Source of the DNA: an uncultured Prevotella sp.
Lineage (GTDB): Bacteria > Bacteroidota > Bacteroidia > Bacteroidales > Bacteroidaceae
Assembly: GCA_946415245.1 (NCBI GenBank)
Contig: CAMKRS010000001.1
Span: forward strand, 1-64,000
Direction of reading: 5' to 3'
DNA: 64,000 nt
Made by a program: the position numbers and the translations under genes. Shown one piece after another: positions 39,596-59,863 of the stretch. Numbering within the stretch: the first letter of the stretch is position 1; each line of letters opens with the position of its first letter. The notes under the pieces were generated by a model. The model was not told where the DNA came from. It searched no databases and worked only from the letters and a program-made list of their open reading frames with translations.

Positions 39596-39676
39596 ATAGT
39601 AAGAAAATTAGATGTAATGGTAGAAAACCTACTTTGGACAGAGAACGAAAATATAAGCAAATATAGATATCAGTGT

Positions 39677-40903
39677 ATGAACGGATCTTATACGATCATC
39701 GATTTGTTCGCAGGAGCAGGGGGCTTGTCTGAAGGTTTCGTGCAGGCGGGTTTTGTCCCTATTGCTCACGTAGAAATGGATAAAGACGCATGCAACACAC
39801 TGAGAACTCGATGCTGTTATCATTATTTGCGAGCTAATAACCAGTTAAATATCTATAATAAATATTTGAAAGGAGAGATTACACGTGAGGCCCTTTATAC
39901 AAGCGTCCCTGCCGAGGTGACGAAAGCGGTTATTAATGTAGAGATTTCAGACACGACGATAAATGAAACATTTGACAAGATAAAGTTCCTTGCCAAAGGA
40001 CGAGATATAGACATGATCATTGGCGGCCCCCCTTGTCAGGCGTATTCTCTGTTGGGAAGACATAGAAAAACAATGGAAGATGATCCTCGAACCTTGCTAT
40101 ATCTCCAGTATGGCAAGTTTCTGAAAGAATTTACGCCAAAAGGATTCGTCTTTGAGAACGTTCCTGGATTGCTGAGTGCCAAAAAAGGAGAGCATTTCCA
40201 GAATTTGCAAACCTATTTCGACGATTTAGGATATAAAGTACATTTTAAGATGCTTAATGCATCTGATTATGGGGTGTTACAGGAAAGGCGCCGTATTATC
40301 ATTATTGGCTGGCAGAAAAATAAAGACATGGGCTTTCCGGAGATAGAGAAAGTTCCTACAAATGCGGTCATTAATGATATATTAGGAGACCTGCCACGAT
40401 TGAAGGCAGGTGAAATAGAGAAAGTGTCTTCCTACAAGAAAGCAAACAATTCATATTTGCGCGAAAGTGGAATTCGGGCAGATGGTGGGAAGTTTGTTAC
40501 ACAAAATATTACTCGTCCCGTTAATGCTAATGATGCGTCAATATATGCCTATGCAATTAAATTGTGGGATAGTAAGCAAGTGCGTGTCAAATATACAGAT
40601 CTGCCTATAGAACTTCGTACTCAAAAGAATGAAGACTCGTTTTTGGACAGGTTTAAGGTTGTGAACGGAAAAGGGAAGGCCCATACTGTTGTTGCTCATT
40701 TAGCAAAAGATGGACACTATTATATACATCCATCCTTGGATGTTTGTCGTTCTATCTCGGTAAGAGAGGCTGCTCGTATGCAGTCTTTCCCTGATAATTT
40801 CTACTTTGAAGGAAGTCGTTCTGCTATGTATAAACAGATAGGTAATGCAGTACCACCATTAATGGCTAAGTCTATTGCAAAATCTATAAGAATATTATTA
40901 TGA
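39677..40903 (+). CDS. dcm: DNA (cytosine-5-)-methyltransferase
   Basis: DLFAGAGGLSEGFVQAGF, GGPPCQAYSLLGRHR, FVFENVPGLLS, QERRRIIIIGW, QIGNAVPPLMAKSIA. Confidence 0.95.
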   Translation: MNGSYTIIDLFAGAGGLSEGFVQAGFVPIAHVEMDKDACNTLRTRCCYHYLRANNQLNIYNKYLKGEITREALYTSVPAEVTKAVINVEISDTTINETFDKIKFLAKGRDIDMIIGGPPCQAYSLLGRHRKTMEDDPRTLLYLQYGKFLKEFTPKGFVFENVPGLLSAKKGEHFQNLQTYFDDLGYKVHFKMLNASDYGVLQERRRIIIIGWQKNKDMGFPEIEKVPTNAVINDILGDLPRLKAGEIEKVSSYKKANNSYLRESGIRADGGKFVTQNITRPVNANDASIYAYAIKLWDSKQVRVKYTDLPIELRTQKNEDSFLDRFKVVNGKGKAHTVVAHLAKDGHYYIHPSLDVCRSISVREAARMQSFPDNFYFEGSRSAMYKQIGNAVPPLMAKSIAKSIRILL

Positions 40904-43059
40904 AAATAGAGAAGTACCAAATAAAAGCAACAAGTAACATTCTGAATCTGTTGGGTGATGAACTGATAGGTAGTGATATCTTGGCTATTTTTGAGTTGGT
41001 CAAGAATTCATATGATGCTGATGCAGATGAAGTGATTATATCATTTGAAGATTTGAATACTCTAAATCAAAGAATAGTGATAGAAGATGATGGTTGTGGT
41101 ATGACCTCTGAGATAATTCATAATGTATGGCTTACAATAGGTACAAATTATAAAAAGAAAGAAGCAAAAATTAGTAAAAAATACAATCGCTTCTCTTTGG
41201 GTAATAAAGGGGTCGGAAGATTGGCTGTACACAGATTAGCAGACTCTCTTTTTTTAGAAACAAAAACCGATGGTGATGATGATGGAGTAAGTTTAGAGAT
41301 TAACTGGAAGAATTTGGTTTCATCTGGTGATTTTATAGATGACCTTTTTGTGGAAGTAAAAAAGGGAATCGAAAAACCATTTAAAAAAGATCATGGTACA
41401 AGAATAACTCTTAAAGGTCTGAAGAATAAACAATGGACAAAAATGCAGCTCCGTGATTTGGTGAGAAAAATAGATAATTTTAAGAATCCTATACACCCAC
41501 TTAATAATTTTAATGTTATAATTCAATGTGATGAGGATAAAAAACATTGGATTGAAGATATAAAAACGGGTATAGACATATTATCAGATAGCTTATATTG
41601 TTTTAGGTTTTCTTTATCTCCGTCTTTGGATGACCCATCTATAGTACAGAGTCCATTTGCAAAATTCGAATGGGATTATTTATTTCGTCCTCATTCTTTC
41701 TGCAATCTATCTGATGTATCAAAAGGGAATGGCCCTGATATTTGTTTGCCAATAAATCCCAAGATTTTTGGCGATGAGAAGAATAGGGAGAAGTATCATT
41801 TACGTAATGATGATTTGAATGGCATTGGAAAGATAACAGGTCAGTTTTATGTTTTCAACCAGAGTAAAAAGTTGTTGGATAAGATATATGGGGTAGGACG
41901 ATCTGGAGCTATTAAAGAATATATTAAAGAAAATTGTGGTGTAAAAGTATATCGTGATAATATCCGAGTATATAATTATGGTGAACCTTCAGATGATTGG
42001 CTAGGGCTAGAACTTGCCAAAGTGCAAAGGATTGGTGATCATTTTAGCAAAAAAGTTACGATTGGTGCTGTATGCTTGAATTTATCTGAAAGTGAAGAAT
42101 CTCTTATTGAAAAAACAAACAGAGAAGGCTTTTTGGAAAATGATACATACTGGAGATATAGGGAAATTATTAGGGCTGTTTTTTCTTTTTTTGAACGGAC
42201 AGCAGATGCAGATAAACAGGATATTGAAGCAGCTTTAGCTGACACGACTATAAACAAACGTGTAGGATTGGCTGATACTATTAAAGATTTAGAAAAGAAA
42301 CTAGAGGAAAAAAAATTAAAAGAAGAATTTAACCCACTGATTAGGAAAGTAGAACGGGATTATAATGAGATGCGGGACGTTATGCTTAATTCTGGTATGA
42401 CAGGATTAAACCTAGCACTTATGTTTCACGAAATAGAGCGTGAAATGAAATATATAAGCTCAGATTTAGATTCACAATCTATTGATGTGATATCTTTGAA
42501 ATCACGAATAAATAATCTTAATCTATTGTTAGAGAATTTTGCACCAATTTTAAAACAAAAGACAAAAAACACGTTATTGGCTTCTGCACTAGTTAATAGG
42601 GCTGTTCAGATTAGTAAGAACAGGTTTTGCTATCATAAAATTATTTTCTCCTCTCCTCTTCTTTCAAAAGAATCACCAGATTTTAAGATAACGGGGCCTG
42701 GCAATCTGCTTTTAAGTTCGTTGTCCAACATTATTGACAATGCAATATATTGGGTTTCTGCCCAACATGAATTAGTGGGAGATAATCATAAGTCTGCTAT
42801 ATATATAGGTACTGACCTGTCTTCTTTCGATGGGCCTGCTATTATTATAGCAGATACAGGTAAGGGATTCCAATTAGATCCAGATTTGATGATACAGCCT
42901 TTTAAGACAACGAAAGAAGGTGGAATGGGCCTCGGGCTATATTTTGTTAATTTAGTAATGGAATCTATAGGAGGAAAAATAATATTCCCCGATAATAAAG
43001 AATTGGATATTCCACAAGTATATGATGGGGCTTGTATAGTTCTTGTTTTTCCTAAATAA
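40900..43059 (+). CDS. Dual-GHKL protein: N-terminal MORC/MutL-like ATPase plus C-terminal histidine-kinase-like module
   Basis: N-term: AIFELVKNSYDADADEV, IEDDGCGMT, NKGVGRLA. C-term: MFHEIEREM, NIIDNAIYW, IADTGKGF, PFKTTKEGGMGLGLYFV. Confidence 0.8.
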   Translation: MKIEKYQIKATSNILNLLGDELIGSDILAIFELVKNSYDADADEVIISFEDLNTLNQRIVIEDDGCGMTSEIIHNVWLTIGTNYKKKEAKISKKYNRFSLGNKGVGRLAVHRLADSLFLETKTDGDDDGVSLEINWKNLVSSGDFIDDLFVEVKKGIEKPFKKDHGTRITLKGLKNKQWTKMQLRDLVRKIDNFKNPIHPLNNFNVIIQCDEDKKHWIEDIKTGIDILSDSLYCFRFSLSPSLDDPSIVQSPFAKFEWDYLFRPHSFCNLSDVSKGNGPDICLPINPKIFGDEKNREKYHLRNDDLNGIGKITGQFYVFNQSKKLLDKIYGVGRSGAIKEYIKENCGVKVYRDNIRVYNYGEPSDDWLGLELAKVQRIGDHFSKKVTIGAVCLNLSESEESLIEKTNREGFLENDTYWRYREIIRAVFSFFERTADADKQDIEAALADTTINKRVGLADTIKDLEKKLEEKKLKEEFNPLIRKVERDYNEMRDVMLNSGMTGLNLALMFHEIEREMKYISSDLDSQSIDVISLKSRINNLNLLLENFAPILKQKTKNTLLASALVNRAVQISKNRFCYHKIIFSSPLLSKESPDFKITGPGNLLLSSLSNIIDNAIYWVSAQHELVGDNHKSAIYIGTDLSSFDGPAIIIADTGKGFQLDPDLMIQPFKTTKEGGMGLGLYFVNLVMESIGGKIIFPDNKELDIPQVYDGACIVLVFPK

Positions 43060-43062
43060 AAA

Positions 43063-44331
43063 ATGAATATGTTTACAGAATCAAATAGAATAATTGTTGT
43101 AGATAACTCACAAGATGATTTGAATAAAATCGCGCATGAATTTAATCTTAAAGGTATAGGGTGTAGGACCATATTATATGATGGAGTATCCTTTCCAGAT
43201 GAACCTTTTAAGGATGTGCGACTGGCTTTCTTTGATGTCAATCTCGGGCAGGCTTTTTCTGACAATGATAAATATGCCATTTTGGAAAATGCAATAGAAT
43301 CATATATTTCTGTTGATAATGGTCCTTTTGTCCTGATTTTCTGGACAAATAATATTTTGTGGAAAGATGGCTTTGTAAATTATGTGAATAGAGATTCAGA
43401 AAACGAAAACATTGTAAGAGATAAAATTAAACCATATTACATATCCGTAATCGATAAGACCTCTATTTCGGAAAGGAATCCATTGGAGAAAATGCTTAGG
43501 GAACAATTGGGAAATCAGTTGGTGGAATTATGTATGATTTTTGATGACCAACTAAAAGTGACATCAGAAAAAACCTTTTCCACATTGCTTTCGATGGTTC
43601 CTATTGGGGACGAATGGGGACGGCCAAATTTGTTCGAAACTGAGTTAAAAAAAGTATTTTCAATGATTGCGATATCATCATGGGGAATACAAAATGCAAA
43701 AGAAAATCCAGATGGTGCAATAAATGATGCAATTCTTCCTGTGGTAGCCCATTCTTTACCTCAATACAGAATTTGGAGAAATTTTTTGAATGCATATATT
43801 GCATCATTAAATGGATGTAAGGATATTCAACTTATTGACGAATCAATTCCTTTGAGATTGAATAATTTTTTTCTAATAGATGAGAATGCTATAAATACAA
43901 AATCTAGGGGCGTTGTTGTTAAATTGAAATCAGACCATTTCGAACAGTATTTTGGCGTTGATTTCCAAACTTGGAAAAAAAGTGAATTTGGAGAAAGCTC
44001 CAATATACAGGATGCATTTCCAATAGCAGTAGAAATAAGTGCTGCATGTGATTTTTGTCAACAAAAGAAGAGAACTTATAAATATCTTATGGGAATAGCA
44101 TGCGACAAGAAAATTAACAATAGCCAAAAGAAGGAGAATATTTTAATCATAAAACCTGTAATTTATGATAAGAATCCTATATTTGTTGCATTTGATTTTA
44201 ATTATATTTTTGTGGATTATATTCCTTCTATAATAGAAACTATTTTGTTCGGTTATAAAAAGGAAATGGTAGATATGATTGGAAATCAATATGCCAATCA
44301 TATTTCGCGTATAGGTATAACTTCATTTTAA
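43063..44331 (+). CDS. Receiver (REC)-like protein with uncharacterised C-terminal region
   Basis: RIIVVDNSQDDLNKI (b1 acidic), LAFFDVNLGQ (b3 Asp), FVLIFWTNN (b4 Thr); C-terminal IAVEISAACDFCQQKKRTYKYLMGIAC. Confidence 0.65.
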   Translation: MNMFTESNRIIVVDNSQDDLNKIAHEFNLKGIGCRTILYDGVSFPDEPFKDVRLAFFDVNLGQAFSDNDKYAILENAIESYISVDNGPFVLIFWTNNILWKDGFVNYVNRDSENENIVRDKIKPYYISVIDKTSISERNPLEKMLREQLGNQLVELCMIFDDQLKVTSEKTFSTLLSMVPIGDEWGRPNLFETELKKVFSMIAISSWGIQNAKENPDGAINDAILPVVAHSLPQYRIWRNFLNAYIASLNGCKDIQLIDESIPLRLNNFFLIDENAINTKSRGVVVKLKSDHFEQYFGVDFQTWKKSEFGESSNIQDAFPIAVEISAACDFCQQKKRTYKYLMGIACDKKINNSQKKENILIIKPVIYDKNPIFVAFDFNYIFVDYIPSIIETILFGYKKEMVDMIGNQYANHISRIGITSF

Positions 44332-44395
44332 TAGATAAGGATGCATAAATTACCAAGGAATAATATCATAAATATATTTGAAGGCCTTGCTGGAT

Positions 44396-44515
44396 ATGAC
44401 GAAGCAATCTTTGGATTACGCTGTTCAGAAATACTTATCCCATGTTGCATATTTGGGATTATCTATAGTACAACCTGATATTTGGATTGAAAAGCCCCAG
44501 AAGTTGAAAGAATAA
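44396..44515 (+). CDS. Short ORF, possibly a gene remnant
   Basis: MTKQSLDYAVQKYLSHVAYLGLSIVQPDIWIEKPQKLKE*; overlaps a second short ORF in another frame. Confidence 0.3.
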   Translation: MTKQSLDYAVQKYLSHVAYLGLSIVQPDIWIEKPQKLKE

Positions 44516-44547
44516 ATATAATAATAACATCAAAAAATAGAAGTGTT

Positions 44548-44904
44548 ATGTTAACAGAACAAGAATTAGTTAATCAAATTGCTTCAGGCAACGAGAGCGT
44601 AATTTTGGATAAAGATGTCGTTAGTATCGACATCCCTCAGGTCGAAATGCGAATAATGATGATTCACAACGCATTAATCCATAGATTAGATTCCGGCTCT
44701 ATACAAATAAAAGAAGTAGATTGGACTTCTTTTATTGATAGTATTTTTGAAATGAATCAGGGTTTGGATTTCATAAACAGAATACAGAACAAGCAATTAA
44801 AGAACGATATTCTTCATTATTGGATTGACAATTATGATGAAATTGTTGGTAATGCATGGAGAAAAGCCCCGTGGATTTCAAAATGGAAAGAACTATGTGA
44901 CTAA
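44548..44904 (+). CDS. Hypothetical protein (118 aa)
   Basis: Intact ORF in the same direction as the operon, no recognised family. Confidence 0.5.
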   Translation: MLTEQELVNQIASGNESVILDKDVVSIDIPQVEMRIMMIHNALIHRLDSGSIQIKEVDWTSFIDSIFEMNQGLDFINRIQNKQLKNDILHYWIDNYDEIVGNAWRKAPWISKWKELCD

Positions 44905-45081
44905 TAAACTATTTCCCTATTTTGAGTTAGTGGGTAACTTTAAAAGAATAATAGTGAGCTCATAAAGAGTATTAGTCATAGAAAACTAAATAATGCCAAA
45001 AAGGTTCCTTCCTGATAGGGACTTATTGGCTGTTCATTTCTATAATTTTTCTCAATTGTTTATAGTAAACTTGGTAAATCT

Positions 45082-45571
45082 ATGGAATATAATCTTAAAG
45101 AACTCGTTGCTTCAATGTGGGAGCATAGAAAGAATAAAGATTTTGAGCGTAAGAGCTTGATGACTTCATATCGTGGCTTATCTGTCAAAGCAAGTATCGG
45201 TATGACTGGCGCTATCTCAAGGACACCATGGATTTCTGCTTTATTTGTTAATCTCGGCTAGTAATCAGTATAATGTTGGTATTATGTCCGATTTGAAGAA
45301 TGGGCTTTTGTGTAAGTTTAGTTGTAGTTATCAGGGAATTAGAGAGAATGTGGATCTGCGACAAATCCGTTATTTAATACCAGTACATAATCAACGTTTT
45401 TCAGGTTACTATGAGGTAAAATCTGTTAATACTAAAGCGGGAGAGTCGCTTCGGATAGAGTTTGAACTATGCAATTATCATGAGATAGATTCTGTAGTAG
45501 AGGTTGCTATTCATGATGGTTATGGAGTTCCATTAAATTATTCAGAGTTCAGAAGCCTTTGCTATGGATAA
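45082..45571 (+). pseudogene. Probable frameshifted gene between the receiver-like gene and vsr
   Basis: MEYNLKELVASMWEHRKNKDFERKSLMTSYRGLSVKASIGMTGAISRTPWISAL... stops at 45261 while another frame (45245-45571) continues LLISASNQYNVGIMSDLKNG... Confidence 0.45.
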
Positions 45572-46157
45572 ATTATCTCCCAAACAACGACACAAGAATA
45601 TGGCTGCAATCCGTTCAAAGAATACAAAACCTGAGATGATTGTGCGCCGAGGGTTGTGGAAGAGAGGGTTTCGTTATAGGCTGAACCATAAACGATTACC
45701 AGGGCATCCTGACCTGGTGTTGCGAAAATATAGAACGTGCATATTCATAAATGGATGCTTTTGGCATGGCCACAACGTGGCGCTGCCACTGATGGGAGAT
45801 GCCGGACGTAAGATGGAGGATGTGATTGTGAACTCTGAGTGTTGTAAGATTCCCAAGACAAACCGAGATTTTTGGGTAACCAAGATTCGCAGGAACAAGG
45901 AACGAGATAGGGAAGAACAGCGAAGACTTGCAGAGATGGGTTGGCACTGCATCACAGTATGGGAATGTGAATTGAAGCCGCAAAAACGTGAAGAAACGTT
46001 GGATTCCATTGCTTTTACCCTAAATTATATCTGGTTGCAAGATCATGGAGCAAAGAAAATTCCCTATCCCCATTTAGAAGAAGAGGAAAGACAGATGCCA
46101 TTGGTTGCAGAGGGAGAACAAGAAAAAAGGGATAATAACATTTCTCCAAAGAAATAA
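45564..46157 (+). CDS. vsr: Very short patch repair endonuclease
   Basis: MAAIRSKNTKPEMIVRRGLWKRGFRYRLNHKRLPGHPDLVLRKYRTCIFINGCFWHGH. Confidence 0.95.
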   Translation: MDKLSPKQRHKNMAAIRSKNTKPEMIVRRGLWKRGFRYRLNHKRLPGHPDLVLRKYRTCIFINGCFWHGHNVALPLMGDAGRKMEDVIVNSECCKIPKTNRDFWVTKIRRNKERDREEQRRLAEMGWHCITVWECELKPQKREETLDSIAFTLNYIWLQDHGAKKIPYPHLEEEERQMPLVAEGEQEKRDNNISPKK

Positions 46158-46211: not shown

Positions 46212-46442
46212 TCATTTCCACCCTGCTGCATTTTTCTCATCGATTAAAGCTATTTGATGCTGACAATGCCTTATCTGAATTTTGAATAGTTCAATACTCT
46301 TTTTCTCTTCGTCGATGATAGCCTCTAATGCTTTTTTCATCTCCTCGCCATCAGCAGAGTTCATTCGCTGTTCTAAAAAGAAATCTAAATAGTTTTTCAT
46401 AACCACAATCGTTACTGATTTATCCACATCTTTATTTCTCAT
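46212..46442 (-). CDS. Small helical protein coupled to the STAND gene
   Basis: 76 aa; overlaps the 3' end of the upstream gene by 11 nt. Confidence 0.55.
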   Translation of the reverse strand: MRNKDVDKSVTIVVMKNYLDFFLEQRMNSADGEEMKKALEAIIDEEKKSIELFKIQIRHCQHQIALIDEKNAAGWK

Positions 46443-49400
46443 GCCCCGTCCTCAAGCTCCCAACGACTCTCCCATTCTCATCCAATGTATATGTCCCGCT
46501 CACCACCAGCCACATAGGCAGCACCGGCATATGCTGATAATTATGCAGTCCAATGATATTTTTCTCACCCAGCACATACCACATGATTCTCTTGTGGTGC
46601 TTGGCAAGATAATTCATCAGTGCATCCTTCCGCACTAACAAATAAGTCCTTGATTCTTCTATTGCTCCCTCATCAAAACAGACCACATTACCCTTTTCAT
46701 CTACAAACACGCCTTCCTTATCACCATGTTGCATCCCCATACCGTCAAATAATTGCTTCGAGGGCACCAGACAATAAAAAGCCTCTTCTTTGGAATGATC
46801 TTCTCCAGCCTCCCACAAATAGCCGATACTTGTTACTTCTGCATGGCCAATGAGACGATTCGTATTCCTGTCATATATTTCCTTCTTGGTCAGCCCCTCT
46901 GCATCAAAATATTGATAGGCTGGCGACCAATAATACTCCCGATAGAACATTTCGTACCTGTCACTACATTCCGGCATCCATCTCCCACCAAAATTCTGTT
47001 TCATTGCCCATTTGTAGACACGAGGGAATTCTTCTTCGTCAATAATACAACTTCTTACTTGATACCACAGCTTTTTGTAGATATCATCTTCGTTATGGGG
47101 CTCTATCCACTCTGGATAACATTCCAAGGCAAGCCAGTCGCCACCTTCAGGATCCTTCAATGCTATAATCGGCTCAGCAGGTGGTATGTCATCATCAATG
47201 TTCAGCCAATCAGCCAATTCTGCCTCCCAGTTATCATACATTCCTCCATACCACCAGTAATTATCGCGAGGTTTTGACCATTGCCGGTTTCCTTCCCTTC
47301 GAACAAGCGTTGTCGGGTCAATATCACGAATAACAGGATCCCATGGCCCCTCATATTCAACGTCACGGTCACTCCATGCATGTTCTAATTTGGGGAAATT
47401 GTCTGCCACCCGAGCCAACAATTCGTGCAGTGCCAGCCACTGATATTTCTTTCCGATCCGCTCATTGGGTACGGTCGAACGTCCTCTTCCCACACCGACG
47501 TTCTGGTCAAATTCGCCATGCTTTTCTTCTCGATACCCGTACTTGTCAATAATAAGTTTGATGGCTATATGGCTCAAACATTCTGCGTCTATTTTCCAAT
47601 TGCTCAATGCACTTTGGAATGTATATCTGCCAAAATCACCATAAGAATAGCCGACTGTCGTATGCTCTGTGAACATAGATGTCAGCACGCTACACAATCC
47701 AGGTGAATCTTTATACCCCCTACATCCTTCATATAGGGCTTTAATTTCCTCGTCAGGTACGAGCTCATAGTCAAATGAACTATGATAAGGAGGCCGTATC
47801 TTATCCACATCGATATCCAGTCTTACACCTATTGAAATAGCATATTCTATTACTTCCCGTGCATAATCTCGAAGCAACACATGAGGATAGATTTCATCTT
47901 TTACATCAAATATCTTCGAATAAATGTATTGGCACAAGCCTGCCAGATGCTCTTTAGATTTCGATCTCACGGCACATCCTAAAGCCACGGCGTAAAGTCT
48001 TTCATGTATATACGGATCATCCACTGTCGAGAACTTCTCCAGTAGTGGCACCAACACCTGCATCCTATTGTGAAGAAGTTGAACAAGGGCTTTTGTTGCT
48101 GTATCACGGAGTTGCCTGTTTGTACTTGCCAAAAACCAAGATAGCAAGGTTGCGCCCAGTTCTACCGACTTTTCATCTATATCAACCTCATCACTTTCAT
48201 TCCATGCCCAGTTTATGACATCTTCTATGATTTTATAGTTAAAACCGCCATAAATACGGGATAATGTAGGTACCCACATGGCATCCCTGTCAGCTAACGG
48301 CATCGGAGTGAGCATTTTGTGCAGATAGTCTGCATTATAATAGTTCCCCGCATAATAGCCAATCTCCATGATGGTCCGAACAAGGACATCTCTGAATTGA
48401 TCGTCATCCATAAACTCAACAAAGTAGGTATCCAGATGTGAGTCTATAGTATTTTCATCTCTCCATATTAAACTGGATAGAACCGCACGCACTACGGCTT
48501 TACTCCGACGGAAAGTGGGCAATGCGTCATACAATTCCACACCTTTACTTTCAGGCAACATAATGGCAAGTGATTCTAACAAGCCCCCAATTCTATAAGG
48601 ATCCTTTACCGTCTGAACATATTCCTCCAAGGCCTTAAAATCAAATTTCAATTCGTATAGAAGATACCCAGCCTGAAGCATATTTTCGAATCGTTCGTAT
48701 GTGAGGTATATACATTCCCCATACTTGCCTTCATCTCTATAAAAAACATTTTTACTGAAAACGCCTTCTGATATTAGGCAATCCAACAACTCTCCTTCAA
48801 CGAAAACTCGTGGGCAAATATCCGATAAAAGATCAGCAGCACTGTCAATAGGCATTTCATGCCGTCCTTCTTTAGCCGTATATGCTATAAACCTTCGCAC
48901 TGCTTTCTCTACGATTTTAATCGACGACGGATATAACTTATTTTTTCTGAGTGATTTCTCTACACCATCAAAAAACATGTCCATGACCGATGTAATACCC
49001 TTTATCCCATCGGGAATCTTCCTGTAGCCGTTGTTCTTCATGCCTTCACAGAACAAACGCAGGAACAATGGATTTCTGAATTCAGGATTAAGGAATGGTA
49101 TTGTCGGATACAACAGGTCGTATTCCTTAAAGAACAACCGTACAGCCTTTTGTGTGTTAATGCCGAATCCATGGTGCCATGCTCTCACACAGTAGTCATG
49201 GTCGAATTCTTCCCATGGAAGTATGGCTGGTTGGTATGAAGTACGAATACTCAAAACAAGTCCAAGCCACGGATGCCGTCTGATTTGATCAATGAAACTG
49301 CGGATATTATTTGGCCAGATAGCTATCCCATGTCCTTCATTGATGGCATCTATGAAAATGATAATACGGTGTCCTGTTGTCTCTGCCTTAGCTTCGAGCA

Positions 49401-50568
49401 TTTCTAACAACTCGTCTGAAGTTCCAGTAAAGTGAAGCATTTTCATCATCTGGGTAAGAGGATCCTCATCGGTGGTGAATTTCTGCCCCAGAAAAAGTAG
49501 GCTTATCTGCTTTTCTTTCTCCCGTCGCAGTACGACATCGGCCATCAGATGAGACTTTCCTACGCCAGCATCTCCTTCCAGAATCAAGACGGGGTCATTT
49601 ATCAGCCTCATAACATCCTGATGCAAATTGTTGTAAACATGCAGAACATCAACACCTAACCCATATATTCTACTATACTTTCTGTAGGATTCGTCAGTAC
49701 TAATATCATTATCAACAACTTTATTGGCAATGTCTTGAACCGCTTCACCCAGCGTCATCAGTGCAGTCAAAAACTCATCCATTGCGATTCTGTCTATGCC
49801 TGCAACAGGAGTTCCCTTTATTTGCCTGATGGCATTCCTGACACTTTCAACCTTTTCAAGGGCATCATGGCAATGCTTGCTCCTTTCTATTTTTCCGCAG
49901 GCAACCTCTGCTAATCTCAGTTCATCTTCTAAGAAATATTCCAGTGATTTCCCTCGCGAAAGCACCTCGAAGTATTCCGCAGCCTCAACTTCAATATTCA
50001 GCTTAGGCAGATACCGCTTGCCCAAGTCTTTGATGGAGTCAGCATTAAAATGTATCAAGTTTTCATCGGTAAATTCATGCCCTCCAAACCAGAATCGAAG
50101 CATACCTTGATTTTGAGGTTTCTGAATTCTTTCTATTAAGTCCGATGCCCACCAAAATTCAAATACGACTTGAGGATTGAGTTCTGTCCATCTTTCCGCA
50201 TATCCATCAATCCGCTCTTTCATGCTCATCCTACCCTCAACATGAGCATCTGACGGATCCGTTGGAACAGCAATGATATATCTCTTTAAATGGGGATGAG
50301 TCTTCAGCGCTTCTTTCACAGAACCATCTATTTGTTGATACTGTGAATTATCAAAAGCCTTACAGAAGTATTTTGCCTGCCATGCTACTTCACTGCCATC
50401 TTCAAGAATCCAATAGCACTCTACACCTCCATCGGGTTTCCCATTCCGCACGAATCTTATTTTGCACGGAATTTCCTCTTTGCGTGCCAGTTGGCAAACA
50501 AATTCCTCAAATCCATCCCTTGCAGACCCATTGACGGGTCTAATACCATTGAAGTCAAGATTTCTCAT
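46432..50568 (-). CDS. Avs-like STAND NTPase with N-terminal PD-(D/E)XK nuclease
   Basis: N-term GKPDGGVECYWILEDGSEVAWQAKYF (D...QxK); LEGDAGVGKSHLMADV (Walker A); RIIIFIDAINEGHG (Walker B); about 900-aa helical repeat-like C-terminus. Confidence 0.75.
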   Translation of the reverse strand: MRNLDFNGIRPVNGSARDGFEEFVCQLARKEEIPCKIRFVRNGKPDGGVECYWILEDGSEVAWQAKYFCKAFDNSQYQQIDGSVKEALKTHPHLKRYIIAVPTDPSDAHVEGRMSMKERIDGYAERWTELNPQVVFEFWWASDLIERIQKPQNQGMLRFWFGGHEFTDENLIHFNADSIKDLGKRYLPKLNIEVEAAEYFEVLSRGKSLEYFLEDELRLAEVACGKIERSKHCHDALEKVESVRNAIRQIKGTPVAGIDRIAMDEFLTALMTLGEAVQDIANKVVDNDISTDESYRKYSRIYGLGVDVLHVYNNLHQDVMRLINDPVLILEGDAGVGKSHLMADVVLRREKEKQISLLFLGQKFTTDEDPLTQMMKMLHFTGTSDELLEMLEAKAETTGHRIIIFIDAINEGHGIAIWPNNIRSFIDQIRRHPWLGLVLSIRTSYQPAILPWEEFDHDYCVRAWHHGFGINTQKAVRLFFKEYDLLYPTIPFLNPEFRNPLFLRLFCEGMKNNGYRKIPDGIKGITSVMDMFFDGVEKSLRKNKLYPSSIKIVEKAVRRFIAYTAKEGRHEMPIDSAADLLSDICPRVFVEGELLDCLISEGVFSKNVFYRDEGKYGECIYLTYERFENMLQAGYLLYELKFDFKALEEYVQTVKDPYRIGGLLESLAIMLPESKGVELYDALPTFRRSKAVVRAVLSSLIWRDENTIDSHLDTYFVEFMDDDQFRDVLVRTIMEIGYYAGNYYNADYLHKMLTPMPLADRDAMWVPTLSRIYGGFNYKIIEDVINWAWNESDEVDIDEKSVELGATLLSWFLASTNRQLRDTATKALVQLLHNRMQVLVPLLEKFSTVDDPYIHERLYAVALGCAVRSKSKEHLAGLCQYIYSKIFDVKDEIYPHVLLRDYAREVIEYAISIGVRLDIDVDKIRPPYHSSFDYELVPDEEIKALYEGCRGYKDSPGLCSVLTSMFTEHTTVGYSYGDFGRYTFQSALSNWKIDAECLSHIAIKLIIDKYGYREEKHGEFDQNVGVGRGRSTVPNERIGKKYQWLALHELLARVADNFPKLEHAWSDRDVEYEGPWDPVIRDIDPTTLVRREGNRQWSKPRDNYWWYGGMYDNWEAELADWLNIDDDIPPAEPIIALKDPEGGDWLALECYPEWIEPHNEDDIYKKLWYQVRSCIIDEEEFPRVYKWAMKQNFGGRWMPECSDRYEMFYREYYWSPAYQYFDAEGLTKKEIYDRNTNRLIGHAEVTSIGYLWEAGEDHSKEEAFYCLVPSKQLFDGMGMQHGDKEGVFVDEKGNVVCFDEGAIEESRTYLLVRKDALMNYLAKHHKRIMWYVLGEKNIIGLHNYQHMPVLPMWLVVSGTYTLDENGRVVGSLRTGHEK

Positions 50569-50583
50569 AACATCAACTGAACT

Positions 50584-51177
50584 CTATAGGCTATCATACA
50601 CCATTAACAATTCGAAATTAAGTTCCGAAAGTAACACAACACCTTCTATTTCCACCACCACTCTCTTGCATCTTTTTACACGACGAATGACTCCAGTGAC
50701 ACCCTCAAAGGCGCCGCCGATAATCTCCACTCGCTTACCCTCTTTCCCGACGACACTCTCATCGTCCAAAAACATCACGCTGTCGTCAGTCTTGGAGGCC
50801 ACACGCATGAAATTCTGCATCAGTCTGTCAGGTATCGTCATGATTGTATGTGCCTCCTCAGCAGTATTGTCGATCATATACCGCAACGGTTCCAAGGCTT
50901 CATTAGTCGACTTCAGATGACTAATCCTCTCCTGCGTGGACCGTACAAAAATCAAATTACGAATAGCCGGCACTAACTTACGACAAGGGTTATCTGTATC
51001 CGCATCCACCACTTTATACGTCATTGGCACAAAGCTTTCTATCCCCAGTCGGTCAAGCTCAGCTTTCACCTTCATCTCGCGCGAGTATGTCACTCTCATT
51101 GGAAACCAAATCTTAGGGTCACCACACGTAGTTGTGTCGTGTTCAAAGCCTTTCCCATCTTGACCCGTTGCCATCAT
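50584..51177 (-). CDS. UpxY-type NusG-like transcription antiterminator
   Basis: WFPMRVTYSREMKVKAELDRLGIESFVPMTYKVV; C-terminal KOW-like VEIIGGAFEGVTGVIRRVKRCKRVVVEIEGVV. Confidence 0.85.
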   Translation of the reverse strand: MMATGQDGKGFEHDTTTCGDPKIWFPMRVTYSREMKVKAELDRLGIESFVPMTYKVVDADTDNPCRKLVPAIRNLIFVRSTQERISHLKSTNEALEPLRYMIDNTAEEAHTIMTIPDRLMQNFMRVASKTDDSVMFLDDESVVGKEGKRVEIIGGAFEGVTGVIRRVKRCKRVVVEIEGVVLLSELNFELLMVYDSL

Positions 51178-51270
51178 ATTACTCTGATTTTCAGTCGTTT
51201 TATGACTTCAACTATAGCCTCTAATTTCTACGAATCCAATATTTATAGTGCGAATGATGCTTCTATGCTG

Positions 51271-51302
51271 CAAATATACAAAAAATACAATTTATTTCCA
51301 AA
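51271..51302 (-). promoter_or_regulatory. Bacteroidetes promoter for the NusG-like/STAND operon
   Basis: Minus strand TTTG-N20-TATATTTG: CAAATATA at 51271-51278, CAAA at 51299-51302. Confidence 0.75.
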
Positions 51303-51427: not shown

Positions 51428-52273
51428 CTATAATTTCGTCACAGAATTAGCTAATCGTTTCTCGTCATCAATCTCAGTGGTGTAATAACGTTGATTAAGG
51501 ACATTGAGTAGGTCAGTAAGGTTACTCTCGTCATTAACATTGAATTTCTTGGTTCCTTCGTCGTAGATATGTGGACAATATTTGCTGATGTATGATGGAA
51601 TTTTGGCCTTTTGCTCTGGACTAAAGCTTTGGTATCTCTCGGTCGCCTCCTTTATTCTTCGACGATTGGCTGTTTTGACATCATCTTTACTGAACCCATC
51701 AGCAACATTTATCATATCCATTTCGAGGAATTCTTCAACTTCTTGATTTGTTGCCTCACGATAGAGAATGTTTATTCCATCAAAAATAGATGTGATCGCA
51801 TTGAGGTTCTTAAAATATAGCTTATCTGCATTCCTTTTGTAGTAGCAATCTGCATCTGTTTTAATAACTAGCACATCTTCATAATTGTATAAAACCGCCT
51901 GATCTGTGGGAGCGATTATATGGTTCCAGGAAAGCAATTTCTGTTTTTCGTATATATAACTTGGTGTTATTTTCTGAAATATGAAATCATTTCCTTCGTT
52001 TTGAACAGACACGATGAAATCAATTTTCCCGTATTTTTCTTTTGGCATGAACGAATAGTTTGTAGCAACGAAATCATTTTGGATGAAGTCTATGCTATAG
52101 GTTTGTTGTGAAAAGTGTTCTACGACAAACCATTCGTCTTCCTGCAGTTTATACTCATCGTCATATTCTCTCGAATTGGCAAAATCTGGAATAGTCTCAA
52201 ATGTTGTCTGGTCGGAAAGCACTTTATAGAAAGAGCCTCTTTTCCCTTTTGTTTTTGCTACTAAATAATCCAT
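51428..52273 (-). CDS. kwaB: KwaB-like protein (DUF4868), Kiwa anti-phage system
   Basis: C-terminus YCPHIYDEGTKKFNVNDESNLTDLLNVLNQRYYTTEIDDEKRLANSVTKL resembles DUF4868; TAATG coupling to a membrane gene. Confidence 0.6.
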   Translation of the reverse strand: MDYLVAKTKGKRGSFYKVLSDQTTFETIPDFANSREYDDEYKLQEDEWFVVEHFSQQTYSIDFIQNDFVATNYSFMPKEKYGKIDFIVSVQNEGNDFIFQKITPSYIYEKQKLLSWNHIIAPTDQAVLYNYEDVLVIKTDADCYYKRNADKLYFKNLNAITSIFDGINILYREATNQEVEEFLEMDMINVADGFSKDDVKTANRRRIKEATERYQSFSPEQKAKIPSYISKYCPHIYDEGTKKFNVNDESNLTDLLNVLNQRYYTTEIDDEKRLANSVTKL

Positions 52274-52866
52274 TATTCTTCTGATTTATTTGATGGTACT
52301 TCTATATCAATATATGTAAAATCATTTACTTGCCCAAGTATTTTAAACTCAATATGTTCTCCTAATTTTATGTCCTTTTTCGTCATCACAAGGATTTTGT
52401 TCTTATCCGCAGTCACGAAATAGAAGCGATATCCAAGTAAATGAAAAATTGGATTGTAAAGATAGATTTCTGCACAATAGCATAATACAGTCAAAGCGAT
52501 ATATGTAACCACCAATGTCATATCATTATTAATACTGAGTCCGACAAAAACATAACCAAAGAAGGTCGGTAGAAAGATTGCACTGGCAGATTCAACCATG
52601 ACAATATTCTTCTCCTTAATATTTGCATGATCCAGTTTGGGGAATCTTCTATGATTTTGATAAGTCAACAGGATGGGTATGACAATATATATCATGTATG
52701 AAACCACGTTGGGCAGATCGATTGAAATGCAAGTGACACCACACTTATTCAATAAGTGTCCGATTGTAATGTTATTGTTTATAAAATAGATACTTGCCAA
52801 TAACAAAAATGCTTTCCCTACAAATATGAGTCGATATAATTTCATACAATAGTCTGTTAGATTCAT
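52273..52866 (-). CDS. kwaA: KwaA-like membrane protein, Kiwa anti-phage system
   Basis: 197 aa, four hydrophobic segments then YNPIFHLLGYRFYFVTADKNKILVMTKKDIK; immediately upstream of the kwaB-like gene. Confidence 0.6.
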   Translation of the reverse strand: MNLTDYCMKLYRLIFVGKAFLLLASIYFINNNITIGHLLNKCGVTCISIDLPNVVSYMIYIVIPILLTYQNHRRFPKLDHANIKEKNIVMVESASAIFLPTFFGYVFVGLSINNDMTLVVTYIALTVLCYCAEIYLYNPIFHLLGYRFYFVTADKNKILVMTKKDIKLGEHIEFKILGQVNDFTYIDIEVPSNKSEE

Positions 52867-53788: not shown

Positions 53789-56700
53789 TTATTTTAAAAA
53801 TAGATTTGACCAATCCATAAAACGCTCAACTTGAATTGCACGATCTTGTTCTTCAGAAGTCCATGGTTTTGCTACATTTCTAAAACCAATGGATAGTCCA
53901 GGAATATTTTCTTTGATTGTATCAATTTCATCTTTAGACACACCCGCTTTTAATAGAATTGTGGATGTACTTGTATTGCAGTTTCCTTGAGTATCGCCAA
54001 AAGGAAGAACTGAATACAATATTTTATCATTATTTCCGAAAGACTCTGCTACATCAATAACTTTTTGATCAAATACTTCATCAGTCATATCTTTAGGTGT
54101 ATTGATAGGAATGACTTTTTTTAAATTATTCTCATCAAATCCCTTATAGATGTTAATATCTTGATTATATGTCACTCGTTTGAGTGAACCAGAAATGGCG
54201 CCATCTTTATTTGGACCATATGCATAATACCCTCGAACGCGATTGTTAGCATCTCTAACGACAAGAAAAGTATGTGTGGGAAAGGTAATATAATTATTTA
54301 GTTTAGAATCTGGTAATGTTGTTGAATATAAATATGTTTTCTTTCCGTCATGATCAATATGAATCACAGGATTATTCTCGCAGTAGACATATGGACCAAC
54401 ATGGTAGTATTTCTCTGCCATTGGGTCTATTTGCGTGAACATAGGAACGACGGGATCATATTGTCGGAAGCCATAGTCATAGAGGTCGAGGCCGTGCATT
54501 CGATCTAGTTCCTTTCCGTTATATTTGTATGGTTGGAGGCTACTGCCAGACCCTTGATCTGCGAAGAAACCGCCGAAAGGATAATAATGGGTTACCTGTT
54601 CCACAGTTCCGCTCTGATTTACTACGGCGCGATTGTTGCCGAGATGATCCTGTGTGTAGTAGTGGAACACTGGTTGGGTTGATGGAGTCACCGTGGCATA
54701 GCCACCCTCAAAGAGATATTTACTCAATGAGACGGGGGAAAAATAGTTCGAAGCGGTGCCTGTATAGATAACATTTCCAATATAGTCAGTACGTGTTGTG
54801 CTACTGATTTGATTGTTGTTAAGATTTTGAGTAGTGTTCAATGGCACGACAATGTTGCCCACAGCCGTTTGCCACGTAGTACGCAGCTTCTTCCCATCAG
54901 GCGAATAAACGTACCGAATGCGATTACCGTTGGTGAACTGTACTTCCTTCGGAAAGTTCAGGTTGTCGTAAGTGATATGCGCTATCTGCTTGTTGGCGTC
55001 CCATATAAGTGAACCATTACCGTCATAGCCATATTGTACACTTGACGTGCTATGTGACTGAAATTCCATTGCGCCATAGACGGTTTGGTTACCTGCATCT
55101 TCAACAATGCTCTCAAGGCGATTTCCATCAAGTCTGATATGCAGGTTGTCTACCTTGCCATACACACCATCACTTTTCAGTCCACGGCGTTGGAAACGCT
55201 TGATCATACTGTTAGCTGAGTACTCAATCACCTTTTCGTTGTATCGGTTATCATGTTCTGAGAAGTTGGCAGATCCATAGACAGCCTCTGAAAGACGATT
55301 TAAGCCGTCGTAGGAAAATTTGTAGCCTCGATTGTAACTATCGGCATACCCTTGCCATTTCTGAATACTAACATTACCATTATAGTATTTTTTTCCAGAA
55401 CATCCTGCACCTGTAAAGTCTGCATAATAGAGCCATTCGTGGAATCCTGTACCCTCAATTTCCGTCAGCCAATTACGCAGGTTGTATGAATAATTAATTG
55501 CCAAATTGCCGTTGCGGGTATTATTCGTAATACGGCCCAATCCATCGTAAGTGTTCTGTCGTATCGTTTTCTGAACGGCTGTGGCTGAGCCACGCTTTAG
55601 TGATAGTGTGGTATTGCTGAGCAGTCCCGTCGTAGAATTATAGTTGTTAGTTGTGGTCGATGTTAGAGTTGGTGTGGTAGCTGTACTTGTGCCAGGATAA
55701 TCTGTTTGTACTGTCTGATAAATGTCACCCCAGTATTTATAGGATGTCGTTGTGGTTGTCAAACGGCTACCCAATGAGATGGAACGTGTCTGTATAGGTC
55801 TTCCCTTGTAGTCATAATAAATTGCATCTGTCAGCATACTTCCGTCACTAGCTATGCTAATACGGCCCGTCTGCAGACCTGTTGTTGTAGTTGAATTTGT
55901 TGTATTCATCACCGAATTATAAAGACGAATGAAATCGTAGTTATCGTAATAATTCACGATTTCAAGTGTAATCGTCCCACTAATATCTGAGTTTCTGGCA
56001 AGCAAATAACCTGTGTTTTGGAATCCTGTTCCTGAAGTGTTATAGGTTGTTGTGTTCACCGTCTCCCCGCGCCAGCAGCTTGTACATGTACCTTGGATGC
56101 ATAGCCGTCCATACTTGTCATAAAGCATGAAACGATAGAGTCCCTTTGACCTTAAGTTAGCATCCTGCATGAATTTCATACGTCCTGCCGTATCGTACCA
56201 ATATTGCGTGTATTCACACTGTGGTAACATCTTCTTCACCAGCCTTCCCTTCTCATCGTATCGGTATTCATATCCATAAACGTCTTTATAACCAGCCTCT
56301 TGATATTGCGGTGACAACACGAAACGGAGTTGGTCTAGATCATCATATATATAATAGGTGTCGTTGTTTGTGCCCTGACGTTCCAGTATCTTTCGACCCA
56401 TTTTGTCTGTGAAAACAGTCATGGTCTTGTTATCTTCGTCTGTTGTCTTCTCGCCAAAAAGCATCGTGGTTGTGTAGTAGCCATTCTTGATGAGCGAATT
56501 CCCAGTCAGTGAAGCAGAATAGCGCTTGACGTTGTTGGTTGCATTAGTAATGTATTCTTTAGTAATGCCCTTTGATGCACTATGCCAAGTGTCCCCTGGT
56601 GTTTGTATAAATATAGCCCGATCAAGGGCATCATAAGTCGTTAACGAATATGCATTTAGGTCGGGGTAGGGGTTTCCTGTCAGTCCCTGAATAGACGATA

Positions 56701-59700
56701 GGTAGTTTGGTGATGAGCCGCCTACAGCCGGCAGCCACTCCTGCGATACACGGCCTTTCAAGTCATAGGTCTGCATGGCGTAGACATAATTGCCCGTTAT
56801 ATTTTTAGCGGTTTCCACAGGCCGTCCCAGCCCGTCATAATACTGGCGGGTAATCTTACCTGTTGTACTGCTAAGCATATCCATAGTCTGCACATAGTTT
56901 GTGCCGTCATTACTTCCGCTGAAAGGATATGCGTATTGATATGCAAATTGCTGCAGTGGCCCGCTATTGTCACGAATGGCTGACAGTTTGCCATCAGTAC
57001 CATAATCATAGTAAGTGGTATATCCATTTTCTGCCGTGATGGCCGACACGCCGTAGAGCGGTTTATAGTTGTATGTTGTGACAAGACCATTGGCACCTAT
57101 GCTGTTGCGAAGCGTTGTCAGATAATTGGTCATTCTGCTGGGCACACTGTCATTGGCTATACTATTCAGCGTGGTTGTTAGTCCTAATCCTAATAAATCC
57201 GTATAACTTAGCCCCGAAACCTTTGCTACGGGCCAACTGGACTTGAATCCCCAGACCAATGCGGTCTTGTCTGTGCCGTTCTCTATGACTGTACGAGGAT
57301 TGCCGTGGGTGTCGTAGTCACTCAACTGTAGCTTCTCAAAAAGAGAACCATTAAGCCGCAGTTCAAGCTGTTTGTAGGGATAATGCCAATTGTTTAGAGT
57401 CAGGAATAGCGTGGAATCCATTTTAAGGAATGTGTTTCCTGCATATAGCCGGGTTGCAACGATAATATCAGCCATGTTTCTTATATTGTACATACTATCG
57501 CAGACGTTGCTTGAACACTCGAAAGGAAATTCGTTTACAGTCCTATATGATGTCCCGTCACTATTGATCTTCGTAATAGTCTTCGGTTGCAGAGTTCTGA
57601 ATAGTGGGTCATAGGTATAATTCTCAGTGGTAGAAAAAACAACTTGGGGCTGATAACTAGGAAGTTGTTTATAGTCTGTTATGGTTTTTGCTTCTAGCAA
57701 GAACTTTTTGACATGGCCTCTCATTTGCCTAATAGGAATAGGTACTGCTCTATAATCAAGCATTGAAGCAGGTATAGGTTCACCATCAATTGTACTACCA
57801 GACAAAATGTTAAGTGCCTTAACACCTATTTCAAACGAGTCAATTCTATTTACCCCATATTGATATATTTCTGTTCGAAGTAAGTTAGATGATCCGTTAT
57901 ATATCTTCTTGGAGGTCAGAAGAGGATCACATGTACCCTCATCAAAAAGAGAGGCCGGACTCAACTGGGGCCATGGATCATTGTTATAATCAAAATGGGT
58001 AGGGAGGATTCCTCCGTTTATATAATCATAAACCGTCACATTGCCTAGCCCGTCTGTTTCTTGAACGTGATCATAAAACACTGTTGATCCACTTCCGTCA
58101 CAAAGTGGTATCAGGGGTTCTGACGAACAGGTAGCTTTCCTATTATAATAATTAAAATATGGGTATATACTACCAGAAACGTGATATGTGTCGTAAACTA
58201 ATGCATCCTTTGGAGAATTTTGTGTTGCATGGCCAGTATAAGTGAATTGTCTTATCCGTGAAGTCGTGCCTATTGGCCCGCTGTCTTCAATAGAACTTAT
58301 CCTTAGCCCTCCAGCGTCTCCGTTAAGATTTAGTTCATAAATCAAATGGGTATGTCCTCCGGATGGATAGGTTATTGTTTCCAAAATACCTGTTTTGGCA
58401 AAGCTCAGATTAGGTTTCTTATTTGCATAATCAATATCATTCGTAGCAGTATAATTTGTTTCTGGGAATTGTAGATATGCAGCATGTGCAGCCTCTCTGG
58501 AAACGTTATAAAGATAAGTAGAATCAGTGTTGTAATATCCCCAATAGTCTTTGTGGCCTGATATATCATAATCAGGGAAATTCTTTAATCTATTATAGGT
58601 GAAGGTATATGTACCTTCATCTGATACAGAAATGGACTGTAGCATCATTCGTTTGTTTTTAGCTGTCGTCCCTAGATATGAATTATTGTCTAAAATAACA
58701 GTTTTGAGTGTATCCCTATCACACCCTCTAATTACAATGCTGGTCAGTCTTCTATTTGGTAAATCTTCCCTATCGTTGCTATATGAAAAATCTATGGTAT
58801 TGCCATTCCATGTTATTTTTTTAAGAATAGAGATGCCATAATGGTAATATGATGGCCCACTACAGTGAATCCCTTTACAGATGGAATCTTCAGAGTGAAG
58901 ATCATAATCATAATAATGATGTTTACCTACAGATAAACTCTCCGACCACACCTTGGTTTCATAACTTGGAGCAGTTTCATATGTGAATGTAATATTGCCA
59001 TAAGGAGTACTGATATTTGTCAGATACCATGATGTAGGGCACATATAGTCTGATCCTGGCATGATGGTTTTCTCCTTGTTCCTGAAAGAATAGACGATGC
59101 CGTCGGAGTCATATATTTCAAAATAACCAGTCTCTAATCCTCGGTCTAGGTATAAAATATCAATAGGGTGATGATTGAGCGTAACAAACTTCTTGTCTCG
59201 GTGGCTATATCGAAAAACTCCTGCTTTGCTTCCAAAATTATAGCTATAACGGTCAGAGGCAGTATCATAAGTTGAATTTAGCCCGTCGGTCAAAGCCGGA
59301 ATGAAAACGTTAGTGTATGCTTCAGGGTAATTAGTAGTGCTATAGATATTATGGAATCGGTCGTAGGAACGATAGAGTGTATCTTCTGTCTCACTTCTGT
59401 TTTCTCTTAAATCCGGAGCTCCGCAGATAGTTCTGCTCACAACTCCTCCTGCATTCAGCACCCAGCCGAGCCCAACAGTCGAAGCAACATCATCGACCTT
59501 AATGCCTGAGGCATGATAGGAGATGCTGATGGGTAGGGTATATTCGCCTAATTTGATTTCGTAGAGTGGAATACTGATTTCCGGAACTCCCGTGGCCAGA
59601 CTAACAGGATACTCGCCATAACGAGCCAAAGCTGCTGCTTGTGGTGATGGAGGCAAGAACTTTTCCAGAGCTGAATACGTGTCAGTTTGGTCCCTGTTGA

Positions 59701-59863
59701 TGATATTGTCCTGCCTGACAGTGTCATTGAGTGCGGTTACGTCCTTATCCTGTGCCGACATCTTCGGCACAAAACCAGCATGGGATAGAATCAGCACCAG
59801 ACTTGCCATTCTTAATATAAATTGTTTGCGGGGCAAAGATATAAAAAAATTATCAGTTTTCAT
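53789..59863 (-). CDS. RHS-repeat polymorphic toxin
   Basis: N-term PPSPQAAALARYGEYPVSLATGVPEISIPLYEIKLGEYTLPISISYHASGIKVDDVAS; YD repeats; RHS core HYYPFGGFFADQ...GLDLYDYGFRQYDP; variable C-terminus. Confidence 0.93.
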   Translation of the reverse strand: MKTDNFFISLPRKQFILRMASLVLILSHAGFVPKMSAQDKDVTALNDTVRQDNIINRDQTDTYSALEKFLPPSPQAAALARYGEYPVSLATGVPEISIPLYEIKLGEYTLPISISYHASGIKVDDVASTVGLGWVLNAGGVVSRTICGAPDLRENRSETEDTLYRSYDRFHNIYSTTNYPEAYTNVFIPALTDGLNSTYDTASDRYSYNFGSKAGVFRYSHRDKKFVTLNHHPIDILYLDRGLETGYFEIYDSDGIVYSFRNKEKTIMPGSDYMCPTSWYLTNISTPYGNITFTYETAPSYETKVWSESLSVGKHHYYDYDLHSEDSICKGIHCSGPSYYHYGISILKKITWNGNTIDFSYSNDREDLPNRRLTSIVIRGCDRDTLKTVILDNNSYLGTTAKNKRMMLQSISVSDEGTYTFTYNRLKNFPDYDISGHKDYWGYYNTDSTYLYNVSREAAHAAYLQFPETNYTATNDIDYANKKPNLSFAKTGILETITYPSGGHTHLIYELNLNGDAGGLRISSIEDSGPIGTTSRIRQFTYTGHATQNSPKDALVYDTYHVSGSIYPYFNYYNRKATCSSEPLIPLCDGSGSTVFYDHVQETDGLGNVTVYDYINGGILPTHFDYNNDPWPQLSPASLFDEGTCDPLLTSKKIYNGSSNLLRTEIYQYGVNRIDSFEIGVKALNILSGSTIDGEPIPASMLDYRAVPIPIRQMRGHVKKFLLEAKTITDYKQLPSYQPQVVFSTTENYTYDPLFRTLQPKTITKINSDGTSYRTVNEFPFECSSNVCDSMYNIRNMADIIVATRLYAGNTFLKMDSTLFLTLNNWHYPYKQLELRLNGSLFEKLQLSDYDTHGNPRTVIENGTDKTALVWGFKSSWPVAKVSGLSYTDLLGLGLTTTLNSIANDSVPSRMTNYLTTLRNSIGANGLVTTYNYKPLYGVSAITAENGYTTYYDYGTDGKLSAIRDNSGPLQQFAYQYAYPFSGSNDGTNYVQTMDMLSSTTGKITRQYYDGLGRPVETAKNITGNYVYAMQTYDLKGRVSQEWLPAVGGSSPNYLSSIQGLTGNPYPDLNAYSLTTYDALDRAIFIQTPGDTWHSASKGITKEYITNATNNVKRYSASLTGNSLIKNGYYTTTMLFGEKTTDEDNKTMTVFTDKMGRKILERQGTNNDTYYIYDDLDQLRFVLSPQYQEAGYKDVYGYEYRYDEKGRLVKKMLPQCEYTQYWYDTAGRMKFMQDANLRSKGLYRFMLYDKYGRLCIQGTCTSCWRGETVNTTTYNTSGTGFQNTGYLLARNSDISGTITLEIVNYYDNYDFIRLYNSVMNTTNSTTTTGLQTGRISIASDGSMLTDAIYYDYKGRPIQTRSISLGSRLTTTTTSYKYWGDIYQTVQTDYPGTSTATTPTLTSTTTNNYNSTTGLLSNTTLSLKRGSATAVQKTIRQNTYDGLGRITNNTRNGNLAINYSYNLRNWLTEIEGTGFHEWLYYADFTGAGCSGKKYYNGNVSIQKWQGYADSYNRGYKFSYDGLNRLSEAVYGSANFSEHDNRYNEKVIEYSANSMIKRFQRRGLKSDGVYGKVDNLHIRLDGNRLESIVEDAGNQTVYGAMEFQSHSTSSVQYGYDGNGSLIWDANKQIAHITYDNLNFPKEVQFTNGNRIRYVYSPDGKKLRTTWQTAVGNIVVPLNTTQNLNNNQISSTTRTDYIGNVIYTGTASNYFSPVSLSKYLFEGGYATVTPSTQPVFHYYTQDHLGNNRAVVNQSGTVEQVTHYYPFGGFFADQGSGSSLQPYKYNGKELDRMHGLDLYDYGFRQYDPVVPMFTQIDPMAEKYYHVGPYVYCENNPVIHIDHDGKKTYLYSTTLPDSKLNNYITFPTHTFLVVRDANNRVRGYYAYGPNKDGAISGSLKRVTYNQDINIYKGFDENNLKKVIPINTPKDMTDEVFDQKVIDVAESFGNNDKILYSVLPFGDTQGNCNTSTSTILLKAGVSKDEIDTIKENIPGLSIGFRNVAKPWTSEEQDRAIQVERFMDWSNLFLK

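Follow-up and report, generated by a model that had tools for sequence, protein, structure and literature searches.

The window analysed here comprises the first 64,000 nucleotides (nt) of contig CAMKRS010000001.1 (assembly GCA_946415245.1) from an uncultured Prevotella sp. and contains, on the minus strand, a gene of the UpxY family of NusG paralogues followed by a gene for the defence protein Avs2 (AVAST type 2). The upxY gene (50584..51177) is the first gene of its unit and is preceded by a 5' leader. Its product scored 135.3 bits against the UpxY family model NF033644 (curated cut-off 100), which confirms the NusG-like, UpxY-type gene called by an earlier sequence-only reading of this DNA; the same model matched 22/22 members of our alignment A3. 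The protein reached the Pfam cut-off for NusG, with KOW at 16.9 bits, under its cut-off of 22.3. Its AlphaFold2 model (mean predicted local distance difference test, pLDDT, 79.6) consists of an NGN domain and then a KOW domain, with a less confident tail and an altered last strand; NusG and RfaH were the best matches in a fold search with this model, and the score against the RfaH model TIGR01955 was 14 bits (cut-off 144.5). The N-terminus is extended by a captured leader (see below), and the normal C-terminal residues are replaced: in the alignment, other members of the clade end like GVASVA-IAYVPAGMLKEI, whereas the last ~17 codons of the window gene are not UpxY-like and end GVVLLSELNFELLMVYDSL.

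A Bacteroidetes-type promoter is present at 51271..51302, where the sequence-only reading had placed one, with a -33 box TTTG (51302-51299) and a -7 box TATATTTG (51278-51271) 20 nt apart. Repeats that could make this promoter invertible were looked for on both sides of it and not found, and an invertible promoter was rejected on that ground; an Rfam search of the window matched zero known elements. Downstream of the promoter lies a 24-nt leader element, TCATAAAACGACTGAAAATCAGAG (51182..51205, minus strand), with a mini-hairpin core CTGA-AAA-TCAG at 51194-51184. A second leader part (51116..51142, minus strand) is situated inside the upxY frame; it has a hairpin ACACG/CGTGT (51142-51138 with 51128-51124), then GTGACCC (51122-51116), and encodes DTTTCGDP.

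Neither polysaccharide genes nor upxZ were found downstream of upxY in the window; avs2 (46432..50568, minus strand) follows after 15 nt and encodes a STAND NTPase of 1378 amino acids (aa) with an N-terminal nuclease-like motif, DGGVE..WQAKY, recognised by eye. The nuclease-STAND gene of the sequence-only reading is thus Avs2: it scored 1155.9 bits against NF041813 (curated cut-off 1000), its best PADLOC family was Avs2 (E=0), and it aligned to the solved Avs2 chain PDB 9o4e at 7.9e-232. The STAND NTPase core is covered by the Avs2 models and by 9o4e, generic NACHT models being sub-threshold. It is an ordinary Avs2, and the novelty lies in what precedes it. The two genes are joined by a 66-nt junction (50571..50636, minus strand), made up of the altered upxY end and the gap, without blastn similarity to other upxY or Avs2 loci: other upxY genes can be aligned as far as ~50637, and other Avs2 genes from ~50570 onwards.

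The UpxY clade and its cargo

A bait search with UpxY was made in 251 genomes of the family and 399 genomes of the genus; the loci of the nearest UpxYs were retrieved, their genes taken from simple open reading frame (ORF) calls, and a tree was built. The window UpxY falls into a discrete clade (support 100/98) of 20 loci, including the window and two fragments cut by contig ends (L108 and L109), which were left out of the tree, so that it has 18 clade rows. Full-length clade UpxYs are 69-87% identical to that of the window, and one member comes from a second genus (G460). Across 394 evenly sampled genomes of the order, no UpxY exceeded 49% identity. Plasmid or phage carriage of the clade UpxY was considered and rejected, as it yielded distant matches alone (<42% identity).

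The upstream regions of the clade loci are alike. A -7 box of the form TAnnTTTG occurs at the equivalent place in the other loci with available upstream DNA and is imperfect in L097 alone; L094, where a contig end cuts the upstream DNA, was excluded from this comparison. The 24-nt leader element is near-identical across the clade loci, and a common block of ~40 nt, TCATAAAGCGACTGAAAATCAGAGTGATATG, ends at the upxY start codon, the DNA farther upstream being mostly unrelated. In L096, a 68-nt copy (88% identical) of the window promoter region was found ~1.1 kb upstream of upxY (19149-19216), besides the copy at upxY. Similar repeated DNA, with antisense ORFs containing LHPLRPHLPRIH, precedes upxY in L046 and L047, and in L047 occurs again after the array (11262-11732, in the UpxY-forward orientation); these repeats are possibly recombination sites.

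Defence-type genes follow the UpxY in 18/20 clade loci, Hachiman, Lamassu, TmtA, Thoeris TIR, AbiLi and a second Avs2 among them, and the remaining two loci, the nested sisters L097 and L098, head exopolysaccharide operons. In the 17 non-polysaccharide loci other than the window, the defence-type genes run mostly in one direction for many kb, often to the end of the retrieved DNA. Within the scanned part, 16 of these 17 loci had a downstream PADLOC match at 1e-5 or better, some of the matches being weak: PD-Lambda-4 (L046), TmtA (L047, 1.8e-230), PifA/KAP (L048, 3e-13), PDC-M29A (L094 and L103), HamB with AbiLi (L095, 6e-217 and 1.8e-64), PDC-S51/M62B/S15 (L096), a phospholipase effector (L099), NsnA (L101), LmuB (L102, the Lamassu gene lying beyond an opposite-strand gene), AbiLi (L104), LmuA (L105), PDC-M54A (L106), a cytosine methyltransferase (L107), ThsB together with a second, different Avs2 (L108, 1410 aa, 3.3e-110), and a PRTase (L109). 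L100 gave borderline matches alone and contains Schlafen/AlbA and KAP/STAND-like genes. The Avs2 of L108 (9451-13683, plus strand) has a trypsin-type-protease-like N-terminus, not a nuclease as in the window, and belongs to the same array as the Thoeris TIR gene.

This cargo differs from that of the sister UpxYs. The 108 proteins following clade UpxYs matched 317 PADLOC models, a figure inflated because one ATPase matches many models, versus 8 for the 112 proteins following sister UpxYs, largely AAA+ cross-matches such as ClpV, with no credible defence match. Pfam families after clade UpxYs were AbiEii-type AAA, putAbiC, Schlafen, TIR, FRG, PIN, HamA and GmrSD; those after sister UpxYs were ClpV, TssC, Hcp and glycosyltransferases. 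At 50-60% identity, UpxYs head type VI secretion (T6SS) operons, with T6SS genes seen in 16/17 loci so labelled (exception L114), and deeper UpxYs head polysaccharide operons where the cargo is readable, several of the 'EPS?' (exopolysaccharide) labels having been given by eye or provisionally. On the tree, cargo type requires 3 changes, the fewest possible (shuffled mean 27.1). The T6SS-heading sister group (L049, L110-L113, L115-L118, L120, L122-L125, L127 and L128), which comes from the same bacteria, contains ClpV, TssB, TssC and Hcp genes and in many loci the two-part leader; a literature search for T6SS-heading UpxYs found no paper.

Near-identical blocks of defence-type genes (94-100%) stand at different array positions behind different UpxYs (genes 2-5 of L046 correspond to genes 5-8 of L103), which indicates that cargo modules are exchanged between arrays. 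L048 and L105 also have genes in common behind different UpxYs. L100, L106 and L109 each have an intact putAbiC-like gene immediately downstream of upxY; in L048 the first 940 nt after upxY are a broken copy of this gene.

The sequence-only reading had proposed an antiterminator dedicated to a defence gene, perhaps to gate costly or suicidal expression. Such a dedication is supported in so far as the defence gene is indeed headed by a UpxY-type gene whose clade accompanies defence arrays, not capsule operons. The exact pairing does not recur: UpxY was near none (0/6) of six Avs2 relatives of 72-91% identity, within flanks of 5.6-8 kb upstream and 7-8 kb downstream, and the exact UpxY-Avs2 junction was absent from the 118 other genomes surveyed, which leaves this pair as the only one in the survey. 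Among the named relatives of Avs2, the nearest are mostly from Prevotella/Prevotellaceae, with one from B. fragilis; the one other clade array with an Avs2 (L108) has a different one, as the ninth gene after UpxY. A tie of UpxY to Avs2 specifically was rejected on the 0/6 result. As judged from these sequence comparisons, the clade UpxY is dedicated to defence arrays in general, whose cargo is interchangeable.

A two-part leader captured by the upxY frame

Many leaders of T6SS and glycan UpxYs likewise contain the core CTGR-NNN-YCAG, with GTG[A/T]CCC ~65-115 nt later. Both parts together were found in 33/53 loci, against an average of zero in 200 resampled sets. A hairpin (score at least 5) immediately precedes GTGWCCC in 89% of 44 UpxY leaders versus 15% of random positions; its stem sequences are many and different across leaders, as expected if it is the pairing that is conserved. 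The window and L094 retain the hairpin through a different 5' arm (ACACG/CGTGT).

The upxY start codon of most T6SS and glycan loci comes after both leader parts, and the leader is thus non-coding, whereas in the clade of the window the start codon has moved upstream and lies between the two parts. The hairpin and GTGACCC of the clade are therefore translated in frame, as a conserved N-terminal DTTMCGDP. The spacing from the element to GTGACCC in the clade is 61, 76, 97 or 103 nt, with a remainder of 1 on division by 3 and an open frame in every case (17/17 measurable loci), whereas all three remainders were found in 16 sister leaders. Synonymous differences in the eight leader codons amount to 0.08 versus ~0.45 in the remainder of upxY, and 0/149 windows of codons were that low. 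In-frame spacing and near-frozen synonymous sites together show that the clade has taken a cis element into coding sequence, where it is still constrained as nucleic acid.

The surrounding defence island

A small ORF (46212..46442, minus strand) overlapping the end of avs2, which the sequence-only reading had counted as part of the operon, turned out to be truncated. From Met16 (46397) onwards it matches the N-terminus (~60 residues) of a protein of ~234 aa whose gene is located distally in clade arrays L099 and L105 (phmmer 7e-25 and 6e-24); it is considered a remnant because two stops end it after residue 76 while the protein is intact in these arrays. It is thus probably not a system component, and its candidacy as antitoxin or partner of Avs2 was rejected. 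The alignments suggest that Avs2 was attached to a truncated upxY; with a piece of an array gene on the far side of Avs2, the window resembles an array that has shrunk.

Upstream of the upxY promoter, a weak but recognisable Kiwa-like pair was found at 51428-52866 (minus strand): kwaB (51428-52273; PADLOC KwaB, 1.8e-15) and kwaA (52273-52866; KwaA, 1.1e-9). On the other side, convergent plus-strand genes of restriction-modification type occupy 39617..46157: a cytosine methyltransferase at 39617, identified by similarity to a clade-array methyltransferase, an HSP90-like ATPase related to restriction enzymes at 40900, genes at 43063, 44548 and 45245, and Vsr at 45564. Flanked by these two sets, the UpxY-Avs2 unit marks the window as a defence island in a Prevotella-like bacterium. 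Next to the Kiwa pair, a gene at 53789-59863 (minus strand) encodes an RHS-repeat-like protein of 2024 aa and is followed by a small ORF, and an ATPase gene at 62085-63218 (minus strand) is 99% identical to the last retrieved gene of clade locus L096 (G869), possibly after recent exchange.

UpxY as a putative antiterminator of defence arrays

Taken together, the window probably carries the head of a defence-array transcription unit with its own processive antiterminator, UpxY, acting in cis. The promoter would start a transcript with a two-part leader, a CTGR-NNN-YCAG mini-hairpin and then a hairpin abutting GTGACCC; through this leader, RNA polymerase would acquire the clade-specific UpxY in cis and, thus modified, transcribe the defence genes downstream without terminating. 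Through capture of the leader by the frame, the loading signal would also be the start of upxY, and the array in the window would have shrunk to one Avs2 gene and a fragment of an array gene. We infer that UpxY recognises the leader, antiterminates, and is required for Avs2 expression. Loading at the leader is proposed because UpxYs are reported to keep transcription of their own operons from ending prematurely in the 5' leader (PMC7819879), and because the NusG paralogue LoaP needs a small leader hairpin (PMC12691694). Action in cis is suggested by the leader element, whose single match in the window and in its own genome (a 52% complete bin) is located at upxY.

It is less certain that the window Avs2 depends on UpxY, given a gap of only 15 nt and an altered UpxY tail. 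Several observations weigh against the antiterminator model of the window: the altered C-terminal tail, the two clade members that head exopolysaccharide operons, the uniqueness of the pair in the survey, and a possible assembly error at the upxY-Avs2 junction in a genome bin that is 52% complete. A further one is that no intrinsic terminator was seen on the minus strand between the promoter and Avs2, including the upxY-Avs2 gap, for which such a terminator was rejected; by-eye reading of the gaps after upxY in other clade loci likewise showed nothing conserved. Some of these points would fit a relict head, with the biology of the clade real and the window UpxY a leftover: the array deleted down to Avs2, the UpxY C-terminus damaged, and Avs2 read from the upxY promoter without antitermination. 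The altered C-terminus and junction, the lower model confidence in the tail, the array-gene remnant on the other side of Avs2 and the 15-nt gap with no terminator seen all agree with such decay, but the promoter, leader element, hairpin and NGN domain are intact and the upxY frame is open up to the junction, and we regard it as rather unlikely.

Defence genes cluster in hot spots, and the clade UpxY could sit there without regulating them; the highly variable cargo exchanged between loci and the opposite-strand gene before the Lamassu gene in L102 would be in line with this. However, in all loci with complete upstream DNA, UpxY comes first, behind a promoter and leader of its own, and is followed by same-strand genes, and sister UpxYs likewise head T6SS and polysaccharide operons; mere hitch-hiking is therefore judged improbable. 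Least credible, and very improbable, is that UpxY acts in trans on other operons, its place before Avs2 being incidental. RfaH does act in trans (PMC7593976) and the genome bin is incomplete, but the leader element occurs once in that bin, at upxY itself, and B. fragilis UpxYs act on their resident operons, according to the same source.

Capsule UpxYs of B. fragilis (PMC7819879, PMC7593976) resemble the window UpxY in family by the curated model, position as first gene of a unit, a 5' leader and same-strand genes downstream; unlike there, the window has a defence gene as cargo, no adjacent UpxZ, a leader inside the upxY frame, and no invertible promoter repeats were found. The T6SS-heading UpxYs (L049, L110 and others) are the nearest sister group and have the leader signature in common with the clade, but carry T6SS cargo behind a non-coding leader, without the N-terminal extension. 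LoaP is a NusG paralogue adjoining its target operon, as is predicted here, and needs a leader hairpin (PMC12691694); unlike the window UpxY (24.1 bits against NF033641, cut-off 125), it belongs to Gram-positive antibiotic operons and has a different hairpin. Avs2 itself, above the NF041813 cut-off, with Avs2 as best PADLOC family and 9o4e as solved relative, is as in known AVAST type 2 systems. In the literature, UpxY is associated with capsules and related surface loci; a search that mostly excluded subscription papers found neither UpxY nor another NusG paralogue connected to defence islands.

These results point to a known regulator family that has, in Prevotella-type gut bacteria, an unusual leader and a class of target new to it, and they suggest an on-switch dedicated to immune genes. 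More tentatively, the clade UpxY, promoter and coding leader may constitute a portable expression head behind which defence modules are exchanged, somewhat like cassettes behind an integron promoter. Array expression might then be tied to translation state and UpxY level, as a switch for the whole immune repertoire, because a ribosome translating the upxY frame could open the loading hairpin that lies within it.

In islands where bacteria cluster many costly immune genes, a NusG paralogue at the head of multi-system defence arrays would act as a single switch for the entire set, and one small gene, or its 24-nt leader element, would then offer a simple genetic handle on it. The range of UpxY would extend from capsules to type VI secretion and immunity, the locus exemplifies how a cis-regulatory leader can become part of the coding sequence of its own regulator, and the clade UpxY with its leader may serve as a marker for finding new defence genes in Prevotella.

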